Of a stretch of 27,124 nucleotides of DNA, positions 15,434-26,723 are shown in pieces. Position numbers and translations under genes: made by a program. Each line of letters starts with the position of its first letter. Position 1 is the stretch's first letter. The stretch comes from a virus: positions 1 through 27,124 of IMG/VR virus record IMGVR_UViG_3300043399_000320; one strand, given 5' to 3'. The notes beneath the pieces were generated by a model. That model saw only the letters and a program-made list of their open reading frames with translations. It did no database searches and had not been told where the DNA came from.

Positions 15434-16846
15434 CTACCAGTCAATCCATATATCGCCAGCTTGCAAAGATGTTCCATCTGGTCTTGTTGTTGGATCAGAT
15501 GATCCTGTTGCTGTTGCTGTCATAATTACCCTGCTTGCTTGTGCAAATGCTCCAGAAGCACTATTATATCCAGATGCCACTAATGCATTTTTTTGTTGAG
15601 CAACAGTAATTGCATTTGCACTTATTGTTCCAGATGATGTTACATTTGTAGCAATAAGATTTCCATTAAAAGTTGTAGCATTTACATTAGTGGTTGCTAT
15701 AACGTTACCTGAAAAAGTTACGGTAGCTGCTGCAAGATTAGCAATATTTGCCTCTGCAAAAGTTCTATTAATCCAAACAGTATTATTTGCACTTCTTTGC
15801 AAAACCTCGTCTGCTGCAACGTCTGTTACTAAAACATCGTGTAGTTCATCGATCTCGTATCCATTCTGAACAGCAATAAGAATGCTTCCACCATTACCTG
15901 CTTTTACTACCCAGCCAAGGAATACACCATTAATTGGCTGAGTTGGTTTTGTGTCTGTAAATTGTCCAGCGGTAGCAGAAAGCCATAGTGGTGTTCCAGC
16001 AGCATATGCACCGACATCAACTCCACGCATAATACCAGCAATACAAACATAGCCAGATGCAGCATTAGCAATGCCACCTTGATGTGTAACAATACCAATT
16101 GTTTGTGCAGATGCACCTTCGGTTGCAGCATTGGCAAGGGCAATAGTTGGTTCTTGACCAGAGGAGCCATTAATATAAACAACAGCACCCTCATTAATTG
16201 TAGATCCAGTATTATTAACTACACGAATGTCAAGCTGTTGACCAATTCTATGAGTTACTGCTCCATCTTTAAGTTGGAACATAATTGTTCCTTCATCAAC
16301 ATCCCACGCAATTTCTCCTGGTAGCGTTGTTCCACCAGTATAGGTTGTATCAATTCTAAAAGTATCTGCAGAAACATATCCAGAGTTTGCTGTTATATTA
16401 GCACTGGCAATCATATTGTTTGAGAATGTTTTTTCTCCTGCAAATGTTTGTGAGCCTGTTGTTACAATACCGTTGGCAGAACCACTGGCAACATTGGGGG
16501 TAAAAGTAATAGTATCTGAAGTAGCATTTCCAGTAATAGAAAAGCCGTCTCCAGGCGTAATTGTAAGAGTGTCTGTAGCAGAATCTGCTACTACAGATGT
16601 GCCATTAGCAGAAATAGTTTCAAATGTATTACCACCGCCTCCAGCACCAGTAGCATCTGTATCATTAATCCAAGCAGAACCATTCCATTTAAGAACTTGA
16701 CCAGAAGTTGGCGAAGAAATGGTTACATCGGAGAGTGCATTAATTGAAGCGGCATTTGTAAGAATTTCATTACCATTTACCGTAGCATTTGCACCCTCAA
16801 CGATAAGACCATTTTTAATCCTAAAGTCTTTATTAGTAGTCGCCAA
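15434..16846 (-). CDS. Tail fibre protein, long form
   Basis: The protein has 470 residues and starts with TTG (MATTNKDFRIKNGLIVEGAN); an in-frame TGA lies two codons upstream, and AAGGTGAT serves as ribosome site. The N-terminal 35 residues match the fibre at 16900-18177 (FRIK-GL-VEGA, T-NG--IL). A middle part with GAVVYINGSSGQEPTIALAN and WLSATAGQFTDTKP is typical of phage and cyanophage tail fibres. The end (SRVIMTATATGSS then LQAGDIWIDW) matches the 173-residue protein at 20427-20948. This makes it a mosaic of modules from both neighbours. It likely binds the host surface. Confidence 0.72.
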   Translation of the reverse strand: MATTNKDFRIKNGLIVEGANATVNGNEILTNAASINALSDVTISSPTSGQVLKWNGSAWINDTDATGAGGGGNTFETISANGTSVVADSATDTLTITPGDGFSITGNATSDTITFTPNVASGSANGIVTTGSQTFAGEKTFSNNMIASANITANSGYVSADTFRIDTTYTGGTTLPGEIAWDVDEGTIMFQLKDGAVTHRIGQQLDIRVVNNTGSTINEGAVVYINGSSGQEPTIALANAATEGASAQTIGIVTHQGGIANAASGYVCIAGIMRGVDVGAYAAGTPLWLSATAGQFTDTKPTQPINGVFLGWVVKAGNGGSILIAVQNGYEIDELHDVLVTDVAADEVLQRSANNTVWINRTFAEANIANLAAATVTFSGNVIATTNVNATTFNGNLIATNVTSSGTISANAITVAQQKNALVASGYNSASGAFAQASRVIMTATATGSSDPTTRPDGTSLQAGDIWIDW

Positions 16847-16899: not shown

Positions 16900-18177
16900 T
16901 TAGGCTTCGATATATGTTTTGCTAACTTTAAACACAACACCGCTAGTTGTTGATGTTGCACTAACAGTTACATTTGAAGTTGCATATGCAGCGGTAAATT
17001 CTGCAAGAGATGCATTTGAGAACATATTTGCATATTCTGTAATGTAAACATTGTTAGAGCCATCAACAGTAACAAGAAGTTCTGTCACCTCAATATCTCC
17101 AGATCCATTCTTTGCCTGAATGAGATATTTTGCTGTTGAGTATGTAGCAACTGCCCAAGTATCAAGATCAACGGTTGAGCCAGAAGCTGTTGCTGTTGCA
17201 CTACCAAGTGATGCATCTGGAAGTGTAACTGAGCCAGCAGAAAGGGCTGCGGTTGCGTTTGTTCCAATGGTAACTGTGTCAGTTGTTCCATTAACTGTTA
17301 CGGTAATTGCTCCGCTACCAGAGAATGTAAGTGTGTCGCTTGCACTATCTGGTGTTGCAGTATTGCTTCCATCTGAGATTGTGTTAAATAGGTTTACAGA
17401 GCCACCAGTTGAAATAACAGCTTCTGTTGCTGCACCGTTACTGTCGCCAGGTGTTGAAAGATACCAAGCGTTAGCTGTTTCATTCCAGTAGATCTTTGCG
17501 TTAGTGTAGTCTCCACGCTCAACCTCAATGCCAGCATCAGTTGTTGGTGTTCCAGTAACATTTGTGTTAAGAACAACAATGTTGTCTTCAACAGCAAGAG
17601 TTTCTGTGTTAAGTGTAGTGGTCGTACCGTTAACAGTAAGATTTCCTGTAACTGTAAGATTATTACCAATTGTTACGTTATCTGGAAGACCAATTGTGAC
17701 CGATCCAGTACCTGCGGAAACCTCAATCTCGTTTGTGGTTCCAGTTAGTGATGTAACACCAGAGTTAGTGATTGTAACAGTTGATCCCTCTCCACCAGAT
17801 CCTGAAACTGAAATTCCAGTACCTGCTGAAACACCAGCAACATAGTCACCAGTTGTGTCTGTACCAAGTGCTACTGAGTTTGCACCAATTGTTGCTGTAA
17901 GTGTTCCACTGGCAAGGTTCGTAATAGTTACGCTACCACTTAGATCTCCGCCAAGAGTAATAGTAAAGTCGTCAACATTAAAGTCAAGCTTTCCATTTGT
18001 ATCGTCATATGTTACTGCGATACCGCCTTCGTTGTTTGTTGAGACCATTGCCCCAACGGTATCTTGAAGGAATTCGGTTGATGCTTCTGTAAGAATGTTG
18101 GAGCCATTGATTGTACCTGAAGCACCCTCAACAGTTAGCCCCTGCTTAATACGGAAGTTTTTTTCTACGGTTGCCAT
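16900..18177 (-). CDS. Tail fibre protein with shared C-terminal module
   Basis: The protein has 425 residues and begins MATVEKNFRIKQGLTVEGAS, related to the next fibre. The middle has Gly/Thr/Val-rich beta repeats (LTGTTNEIEVSAGTGSVTIG, then NLTVTGNLTVNGTTTT, and EVERGDYTNAKIYWNETANA). The last 90 residues (TAKYLIQAKNGSG, then TELLVTVDGSNNVYITEY) form a module widespread in tail fibres. AAGGAG precedes the ATG. It is co-transcribed with the 146-residue gene upstream, which ends in a related module. Confidence 0.75.
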   Translation of the reverse strand: MATVEKNFRIKQGLTVEGASGTINGSNILTEASTEFLQDTVGAMVSTNNEGGIAVTYDDTNGKLDFNVDDFTITLGGDLSGSVTITNLASGTLTATIGANSVALGTDTTGDYVAGVSAGTGISVSGSGGEGSTVTITNSGVTSLTGTTNEIEVSAGTGSVTIGLPDNVTIGNNLTVTGNLTVNGTTTTLNTETLAVEDNIVVLNTNVTGTPTTDAGIEVERGDYTNAKIYWNETANAWYLSTPGDSNGAATEAVISTGGSVNLFNTISDGSNTATPDSASDTLTFSGSGAITVTVNGTTDTVTIGTNATAALSAGSVTLPDASLGSATATASGSTVDLDTWAVATYSTAKYLIQAKNGSGDIEVTELLVTVDGSNNVYITEYANMFSNASLAEFTAAYATSNVTVSATSTTSGVVFKVSKTYIEA

Positions 18178-25283: not shown

Positions 25284-25313
25284 TTATCCACAGCTGTGTA
25301 CAAGTTATCCACA
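25284..25313 (+). repeat. DnaA boxes, set C
   Basis: Two perfect TTATCCACA boxes (25284-25292 and 25305-25313) in the same orientation, 21 bases apart, with CTGTGTACA between. They sit in the 139-base spacer that also carries TTTACGTA (25345-25352). Confidence 0.8.
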
Positions 25314-25379
25314 GGGGGCGCAGCCGATCTATGAGATAAACTCCTTTACGTAGTTAAGAAGAAAATTCCCGAATTCCTG

Positions 25380-25407
25380 GTTTGATGTCCGTGGTCATTG
25401 TTATAAT
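25380..25407 (+). promoter_or_regulatory. Common early promoter, plus copy 4 (leaderless)
   Basis: GTTTGATGTC, CGTGGTCATTGT, TATAAT, then GTGACT and ATG. This is the only copy with no start-associated AAAGGACA, so its mRNA is probably leaderless. Confidence 0.7.
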
Positions 25408-25413
25408 GTGACT

Positions 25414-25515
25414 ATGAACACATTCGATGCCTCCTTCCACTGCCACTACTGCCACGAACGCTATGAGTTCTGTGGTTGCCCCAATGACGAGTTTGAGCGT
25501 GAGTGGGAAGGATAG
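25414..25515 (+). CDS. Tiny Cys/His protein
   Basis: The frame has 33 residues: MNTFDASFHCHYCHERYEFC then GCPNDEFEREWEG. CHYCH and CGC could bind a metal ion. Strongly acidic C-terminus. Leaderless, six bases after TATAAT. Confidence 0.65.
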   Translation: MNTFDASFHCHYCHERYEFCGCPNDEFEREWEG

Positions 25516-25545
25516 GAGTTTGTCCTAACATACCAGGGGCGCAAC

Positions 25546-25566
25546 TTATCCACAGGCTGTGTATAA
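25546..25566. repeat. DnaA boxes, set D
   Basis: TTATCCACA (25546-25554, plus) and TTATACACA on the minus strand (25558-25566) face each other. The second is a known variant sequence of the DnaA box. GTTACGTA (25571-25578) and a CCCAGA-TTC-TCTGGG hairpin (25593-25607) follow. Confidence 0.75.
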
Positions 25567-25606
25567 CTTTGTTACGTAATGTTACGAAGAATCCCAGATT
25601 CTCTGG

Positions 25607-25634
25607 GTTTCGTGTCGGTGCTCACTTGTATAAT
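25607..25634 (+). promoter_or_regulatory. Common early promoter, plus copy 5
   Basis: GTTTCGTGTC, GGTGCTCACTTG, TATAAT. It abuts a perfect CCCAGA/TCTGGG hairpin. Confidence 0.75.
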
Positions 25635-25656
25635 AGAGATATCGAAAGGACAAAAA

Positions 25657-25857
25657 ATGATTGAAATCTCAGAATCACGAATCGAATCTCTTCTCTTGGG
25701 TGGCGGAATCGTCACGCCTAGCGGCACACTCATTGACAACATTGAGCGTGTTGACTATGACGGTCAGAATCTCCGAATCCGTGGATGGGTTCGTACCCCT
25801 ATGTCGTATGTTTCATCGGCACAATGGTACTCACGATGGGCAACCATCAAACTCTAG
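25657..25857 (+). CDS. Small early protein, beta-type
   Basis: The protein has 66 residues from the ATG at 25657 (MIEISESRIESLLLGGGIVT), which follows CGAAAGGACAAAAA. A longer reading from 25579 would run through the promoter and is rejected. The rest, LIDNIERVDYDGQNLRIRGW then VRTPMSYVSSAQWYSRWATI, is beta-type and Trp-rich. No family is recognised. Its TAG stop overlaps the next promoter. Confidence 0.65.
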   Translation: MIEISESRIESLLLGGGIVTPSGTLIDNIERVDYDGQNLRIRGWVRTPMSYVSSAQWYSRWATIKL

Positions 25858-25884
25858 TTTCGTGTCGGTGGTCTCCACTATAAT
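25857..25884 (+). promoter_or_regulatory. Common early promoter, plus copy 6
   Basis: GTTTCGTGTC, GGTGGTCTCCAC, TATAAT, the consensus member. It starts at the last base of the preceding stop codon. Confidence 0.8.
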
Positions 25885-25912
25885 TGTAGTATCAACAGAA
25901 AAGGACAGCAAA

Positions 25913-26038
25913 ATGGCAAAGAATGACTACTACTTGGTTCACTACATTGAGAATGGACGTGAGGTTTATTCCGCTGTTCACTGGCGTGACCTTGCTAAGT
26001 TCCGCTCAGAATTCGAAATCATCTCCATCACGGCATAG
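25913..26038 (+). CDS. Small early protein with YxxHY start
   Basis: The protein has 41 residues: MAKNDYYLVHYIENGREVYS then AVHWRDLAKFRSEFEIISIT. It reads as a beta hairpin and a helix, like small nucleic-acid- or protein-binding inhibitors of phages, without a recognised family. AAAAGGACAGCAAA precedes the ATG. Nine bases after its stop a structured-RNA-like element begins (26048). Confidence 0.65.
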   Translation: MAKNDYYLVHYIENGREVYSAVHWRDLAKFRSEFEIISITA

Positions 26039-26110
26039 TTATCCACAGGGGCTAGGGTGAGCCTGTGAGTTATCCACAGCAAATAAACCTAGCCCCCAAA
26101 GTTATCCACA
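26039..26110 (+). repeat. DnaA boxes, set E
   Basis: Three perfect TTATCCACA boxes in one orientation (26039-26047, 26070-26078, 26102-26110). The middle box lies inside the RNA-like element at 26048-26096. Confidence 0.8.
26048..26096 (+). ncRNA. Structured RNA-like element, copy 1
   Basis: Outer stem GGGGCTAGG (26048-26056) with CCTAGCCCC (26088-26096), joining strand GTGAGC, inner stem CTGTG/CACAG (26063-26067, 26075-26079), joining strand CAAATAAA. A second element at 26677-26723 has the same order and joining strands but different stem bases. Confidence 0.55.
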
Positions 26111-26137
26111 GGGGCTGCGCCCCCCCACAACTTTTTT
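26111..26137 (+). terminator. GC-rich hairpin with T6
   Basis: GGGGC-TGC-GCCCC (26111-26123) is followed after eight bases by TTTTTT (26132-26137). A plausible terminator after the RNA element. Confidence 0.55.
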
Positions 26138-26178
26138 GCGTCTTTAAGAATATTATTGCGTTTTCCCAGTTTTTGGGG

Positions 26179-26206
26179 GTTTGGTGTCGGTGGTCGCCTG
26201 TATACT
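26179..26206 (+). promoter_or_regulatory. Common early promoter, plus copy 7
   Basis: GTTTGGTGTC, GGTGGTCGCCTG, TATACT. Confidence 0.75.
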
Positions 26207-26229
26207 GTAAACATAACGAAAGGCAAACT

Positions 26230-26394
26230 ATGGAAATCGTACAAATCCCACTCTCCGCACTCCAATCCTCATTCGAATATTTCTCGGCAGAGGCTATCAA
26301 ATATGAGGATATGCCCGACCTGCGTGAGTGGTGTGTTGGTCGTGCGAGTGCCTACGCTACGCTTATCGAACTCTGGCACAAGCCCACCGTTTGA
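26230..26394 (+). CDS. Small early helical protein
   Basis: The protein has 54 residues: MEIVQIPLSALQSSFEYFSA, then EAIKYEDMPDLREWCVGRAS and AYATLIELWHKPTV. Helical with many acidic residues; no family is recognised. ACGAAAGGCAAACT precedes the ATG. Its TGA stop is within the next promoter (GTTTGATGTC). Confidence 0.65.
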   Translation: MEIVQIPLSALQSSFEYFSAEAIKYEDMPDLREWCVGRASAYATLIELWHKPTV

Positions 26395-26416
26395 TGTCGG
26401 TGGTCAACGGTATAAT
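26389..26416 (+). promoter_or_regulatory. Common early promoter, plus copy 8
   Basis: GTTTGATGTC, GGTGGTCAACGG, TATAAT. The TGA in it is the stop of the preceding gene. Confidence 0.75.
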
Positions 26417-26441
26417 AGAAACATAACGAAAGGAAAACAAA

Positions 26442-26669
26442 ATGAACGAATTTATCGGATACACAATCAAGACACACGACAACGCTTATGTCGGTAAGGT
26501 CAGGGATGTTCAGGCAATCTATGTCCAGCCTGTCTACCGCAAGCAGTTTGGCATTGAGGAAAATGAGCCTTATGTTGCCTACGCTGTCCAAATTGACGAA
26601 AGCCCCAAAGGTTGGTCAACCATTATCGGGCGTAACGCAGAGGAACTTCACAAGCGTTATGTAATCTAA
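26442..26669 (+). CDS. Small early protein, beta-barrel-like
   Basis: The protein has 75 residues: MNEFIGYTIKTHDNAYVGKV, then RDVQAIYVQPVYRKQFGIEE and VAYAVQIDESPKGWSTIIGR. The strand rhythm with IGYTIKTHD...YVGKVRDV suggests a small PRC- or SH3-barrel type fold, a guess from shape. ACGAAAGGAAAACAAA precedes the ATG. Seven bases after its stop the second structured element begins. Confidence 0.65.
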   Translation: MNEFIGYTIKTHDNAYVGKVRDVQAIYVQPVYRKQFGIEENEPYVAYAVQIDESPKGWSTIIGRNAEELHKRYVI

Positions 26670-26676
26670 TCTCGCA

Positions 26677-26723
26677 GGGGAGAGGGTGAGCCTAGCAAAA
26701 ACTAGCAAATAATCTCTCTCCCC
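26677..26723 (+). ncRNA. Structured RNA-like element, copy 2
   Basis: Outer stem GGGGAGAGG (26677-26685) with the end of CTCTCTCCCC (26714-26723), joining strand GTGAGC, inner stem CTAG/CTAG (26692-26695, 26702-26705), joining strand CAAATAAT. A CGCAA/TTGCG hairpin follows. Compare copy 1 at 26048-26096. Confidence 0.55.

Follow-up and report, generated by a model that had tools for sequence, protein, structure and literature searches.

We found that two small hairpins in the window, meaning the whole 27,124-nucleotide stretch of DNA analysed here (a 27-kb virus record, possibly a fragment), belong to a previously undescribed RNA family, and we regard it as nearly certain that this RNA family is real. 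Its core is a nearly invariant internal loop of two strands, UGAGC opposite CAAAUAA, usually adjoining a G.A or A.G pair; the stems that frame the loop differ completely in sequence among members and keep their complementarity. The portal protein encoded in the window shares 48% identity with its counterparts in Streptomyces phages of the Stanwilliamsviridae, the family being taken from the taxonomy of one member, Yaboi. The larger genes, at positions 287-22857, lie on the minus strand and for the most part look structural; two of them (15434-16846 and 16900-18177) encode repeat-rich proteins that resemble each other. Small plus-strand genes follow. The original prediction had set two hairpins shortly after the stop codons of two such small genes; both positions and both distances are correct, and the hairpins fold as it had drawn them:

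25913..26038, plus strand: small gene of 41 aa that precedes element 1, with 9 nt between the stop codon and the element.
26048..26096, plus strand: element 1, a single-module hairpin with a 9-bp outer stem (GGGGCTAGG at 26048-26056, CCTAGCCCC at 26088-26096), a flanking G.A and a 5-bp inner stem (CTGTG at 26063-26067, CACAG at 26075-26079, with the cap AGTTATC between); a single G lies between GGGGCTAGG and TGAGC, and a single A between CAAATAA and CCTAGCCCC.
26058..26062, plus strand: 5' loop strand of element 1, UGAGC (TGAGC), invariant in 31/31 aligned single-module elements.
26070..26078, plus strand: DnaA-box-like TTATCCACA within element 1.
26080..26086, plus strand: 3' loop strand of element 1, CAAAUAA (CAAATAA), likewise invariant in 31/31.
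26442..26669, plus strand: small gene of 75 aa that precedes element 2, with 7 nt between the stop codon and the element.
26677..26723, plus strand: element 2, a single-module hairpin with a 10-bp outer stem containing one G-U wobble (GGGGAGAGGG at 26677-26686, CTCTCTCCCC at 26714-26723) and a 4-bp inner stem (CTAG and CTAG, the second at 26702-26705, with the cap CAAAAA); a T follows CAAATAA.
26687..26691, plus strand: 5' loop strand of element 2, UGAGC (TGAGC), from the alignment of 31 single-module elements.
26706..26712, plus strand: 3' loop strand of element 2, CAAAUAA (CAAATAA), from the same alignment.

Both elements are predicted to be stable, with folding energies of -24 kcal/mol for element 1 and -21.2 kcal/mol for element 2 (z about -4), and none of 200 shuffles was as stable. 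Exactly two matches to the paired pattern exist in the window, and none in the shuffled sequence. A covariance model of the family, built on 31 sequences with both window copies included, scored element 1 at 47.5 bits and element 2 at 45.0 bits (E about 1e-10), and a scan of the window with it gave nothing above noise beyond these two. The inner stem of element 1 is not evidence on its own, since this stem and its loop coincide with the DnaA-box-like TTATCCACA. Further DnaA-box-like sites lie at 26039-26047 and 26102-26110, and several occur between the early small genes at 25285-26110; as clusters of such boxes are also found near elements in two other contigs (G010 and G006), this stretch may be the origin region of the phage.

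That the motif was a structured RNA under selection had been proposed from two copies, with the proviso that a lack of further copies, or relatives in which the stems were not kept, would refute it. The idea survived this check, and the many further copies, with stems that are different yet complementary, support it. Loop-centred patterns run against 2.9 million viral contigs picked out 107 and 46 stretches, a double-module scan returned at least 120, and well over 150 distinct relatives are present in public viral contigs. A pattern requiring exact loops and both stems gave 224 matches, against 0 in the reversed-sequence control. When one mismatch was allowed, UGAGC was kept in 89/90 contexts and CAAAUAA in 81/90, the remainder being seven CGAAUAA and two CAAUUAA. 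The single-module set was 85.6% paired (61.8% when shuffled) with a covariation score of 0.378 (0.137), and the double-module set 97.6% paired (70.6%) with a score of 0.295 (0.055), the latter signal collapsing when the alignment was slid by one column. Column-wise counts, made without correction for phylogeny, likewise put changes on both sides of pairs far above the shuffles. The stems had been a selection criterion for these first alignments, and we therefore applied the test again to an independent set of 78 distinct double-module elements, retrieved with a pattern that constrained nothing beyond the loops and a portion of the inner stem common to both modules. Among them, 73/78 formed an outer stem of 4 bp or longer (shuffled mean 16, maximum 27) and 54 an inner hairpin of 3 bp or longer, against 7.6 expected; an earlier pattern-only set, which also contained chance matches from coding regions, was paired in 20/38 cases against 6.6 expected. 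Shuffles, reversed-sequence control and independent set together rule out a chance match. The junction pair beside the loop swaps G.A for A.G, the change expected of a non-canonical RNA pair.

The carriers are uncultured actinobacterial phages that form a widespread group. Of 25 element-bearing records, 14 encode a DnaE-type polymerase, with 51-76% identity to the enzyme of one mapped contig (G001); the remaining records are shorter and possibly incomplete. Identity between the G001 enzyme and those of cultured Streptomyces relatives does not exceed 55%. No element was found in Yaboi or in eight other cultured Streptomyces and Rhodococcus phages. Two scans of 84,980 bacterial species genomes gave only one true element locus, a 5-kb contig of a Saccharibacteria MAG (CAIMCP010000002.1) with two tandem single-module elements, which is probably a misbinned phage contig, and a bacterial or prophage origin is ruled out on this basis. 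The motif had not been recognised in the original prediction; no Rfam 15 family reached its gathering threshold in the window or in eight relatives; a permissive Rfam search of the element region gave only one chance match, located elsewhere. We found nothing relevant in the open-access literature on the letters of the loop or on such a motif, although a catalogue entry elsewhere is possible.

The hairpin motif had been taken as the unit, and as a structured RNA it stands, but the relatives, and only they, make visible that the unit is the internal loop. A single hairpin holds between one and three modules, whose strand order can be either way round, within a length of about 35-95 nt, and many members have only 8-10 bp in total. 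Type S, to which the window elements belong, is a single hairpin; type D has two modules back to back on a shared stem of 4-5 bp, often with the identical 16-mer UGAGCCUAGCAAAUAA on both strands; type N has two modules in the same sense; and type T has three, the innermost flipped, while one contig carries three in alternating order. Since module number, stem length and strand order all vary, we take each loop to be a recognition unit. Opposed modules are spaced by 4-5 or 9 bp and same-sense modules by 3-4 or 8-9 nt, with none at 5-7; these discrete steps suggest that the face of the helix matters, although the count partly reflects families of related rods. GNRA tetraloops cap 24/43 terminal hairpins. 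The stacking and flipping of modules in longer rods, and the usual site in 5' leaders, are not discernible from two copies.

In most phages the order is promoter, about 25 nt, element, ribosome site and small gene. In the independent set, a sigma-70-like promoter lies upstream of 40/72 elements compared with 37/360 random positions, its -10 box most often 35-39 nt upstream, from which we infer a transcription start about 25-30 nt upstream of the element; these promoters are consensus matches, with no transcript data behind them. An ATG led by a ribosome-binding site follows within 140 nt in 57/72 (at 18-76 nt), and the next gene is on the same strand in 59/70 elements with a neighbour; the first element set agrees on promoter and gene placement and on orientation. 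A U tract directly after the hairpin was found in 0/72 elements, which rules out an intrinsic terminator, and the downstream genes encode diverse small proteins with none in common, which rules out a riboswitch or leader of one gene. Each of six mapped contigs (92-112 kb) has 1-4 elements within about 3 kb (in G004 counted across the contig ends), confined to one early region and absent from the late structural genes. In four of these contigs (G001, G004, G005 and G010) they lie where a leftward block of genes gives way to a rightward one; in G003 they are near that switch, and in G006 less clearly so. At several three-module loci, among them L080, L110 and L095, a second short hairpin stands between the rod and the start codon, with arms that vary yet are complementary (for example GGTTAGAAAGTCTAACC), preceding the ribosome site AAAGAAAGG. 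Three further loci (L037:7030-7230, L199:9358-9560 and L174:2026-2230) show a promoter, a double-module rod, a second promoter, a second rod and a gene in tandem. Immediately behind the first rod there is no gene that belongs to it, and this rod might be a free small RNA.

The window's clade (the window, L139, L196 and L202) is arranged differently, with two single-module elements about 0.6-1 kb apart that follow the ends of small genes. No promoter was found just upstream of the window copies, and each next gene in this clade has a separate promoter, situated beyond the element; in the window, terminator-like hairpins come after the elements and before that promoter. A leader role is thus not shown for this clade, and a trailer or read-through role is as good for its copies. 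Between 25610 and 27050 the small genes of the window have their own promoters, with the common form TGTCGG and then a normally spaced TATAAT-like box; in many cases a hairpin-TTT and a TACGTA-like stretch come first. Upstream of -10 boxes in the other clades, TGTC(A/G)G recurs as well.

We hypothesise that the elements are cis-acting RNAs that dock a trans-acting partner on early transcripts, a proposal to which we give about an even chance, its mechanism being inferred and its function untested. Each module would be a docking site for an RNA-binding protein of phage or host, or for RNA polymerase itself, and docking would promote the earliest transcripts of the phage, most likely through a more processive polymerase in the manner of put or nut, or else through protection of the message. 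In the window's clade this module is found just after the stops of small early genes. A nearly invariant loop set in replaceable stems, present up to three times and in either order, is what would be expected of a recognition unit. Structure, conservation and position are observed in the data; the partner and its effect are inferred, and we leave undecided whether processivity, stability or translation is affected. Among the proteins common to the six mapped contigs there was no obvious RNA-binding family and no convincing candidate partner. A Ro/Y-RNA system, an idea that came from the Ro-like RNA-binding protein of Yaboi (L257:30556-32181), was rejected, as no TROVE/Ro protein was found in 16 contigs.

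A partner might not be needed at all. The put RNA of phage HK022 suppresses pausing and termination without a protein, via the beta' zinc-binding domain, and the nascent fold of our elements could similarly bind RNA polymerase and carry it past the pauses and terminators of early operons, which we consider possible but rather unlikely, there being no read-through data. Most of the family does share the location of put: the elements come after divergent early promoters, where the outward early operons begin, just as putL and putR lie behind PL and PR (PMC9378689), and like put the family has no dedicated downstream gene; the terminator-like hairpins of the window, between the elements and the next promoter, would also fit. 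However, put is a fold of about 70 nt with two stem-loops of fixed geometry (PMC9378689), an arrangement not met by single rods with one to three copies of one invariant loop, whose number of modules, length and orientation vary. The location is not shown for the window copies and, unlike for put, antitermination by the elements has not been shown. The nut sites of lambda (boxA/boxB) are also early leader RNAs at both arms, often with GNRA-type caps, but the conserved part of our elements is an internal loop and not a hairpin loop. In 108 leaders boxA was found 0 times exactly and twice with one mismatch, not above chance (three in shuffled sequences), which rules out identity with nut. With the anatomy of put unmatched and boxA absent, we prefer a docking element for a trans-acting partner.

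The loop itself can be compared with known motifs. In three dimensions, the UAA/GAN internal-loop motif forms a cross-strand AAA stack. Our elements share its sequence requirement, a UAA strand facing a GAN strand (PMC12550061), in a nearly invariant form. They have UAA on one strand and GA then G on the other, in cross-strand order and usable in either strand order, but with a longer and far more invariant consensus (5+7 nt plus the junction pair). These letters may describe the core of the loop, for which there is no 3D structure. Kink-turns are likewise asymmetric internal loops between two helices, here repeated along a rod, but they need GA on both strands for tandem sheared G.A pairs, and CAAAUAA has no GA. 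GOLLD, ROOL and other ornate phage RNAs are also structured RNAs of environmental phages, some from lakes; they run to hundreds of nucleotides, in contrast to our short elements, which have no Rfam match.

The docking of a partner must also be weighed against a simple stability element, a structured 5' or 3' end shielding small early messages from nucleases, which we think possible though doubtful. Such shields work near 5' ends and just after stops, and the elements lie near predicted 5' ends or, in the window's clade, just after stops, with stems that are stable in the folding of the window copies; but a shield has no need of an invariant 12-nt internal loop, nor would it be limited to 1-4 copies per genome in one early region. 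An RNase III site, at which the host enzyme would cut an internal-loop hairpin, seems improbable to us. Phage T7 has such sites between its early genes, and asymmetric internal-loop hairpins between small early genes, 7-9 nt past stops in the window, resemble them, but members with 8-10 bp in all are short for the enzyme, the requirement of about two helical turns of duplex is not met, and a cleavage loop need not be invariant. A DNA-level feature such as an origin hairpin or protein site, considered because DnaA boxes cluster near elements in some phages (at window 26039, 26070 and 26102, and many within a few kb in G010 and G006), is very improbable, given that the elements of G003 and G004 have few boxes around them, that orientation follows the downstream gene, that sense-strand stem mismatches favour G-U over A-C (11 against 2; small numbers, partly related sequences), and that GNRA caps are an RNA preference.

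We describe a well-supported RNA family that Rfam lacks and that our literature searches did not turn up. It has an unusual modular build, in which one loop can sit in any stems, up to three times and with its strands in either order. This build suits clean mutational design, in which the loop is altered with the stems kept, or the reverse. Tentatively, the family could represent a ruler-like class of phage regulatory RNA, with a strand-swappable loop, quantised spacings and a graded number of sites at the heads of the early operons of a widespread freshwater group of phages, that recruits an unknown takeover factor. Its position at the first promoters makes the family a candidate handle on the takeover of actinobacterial hosts.
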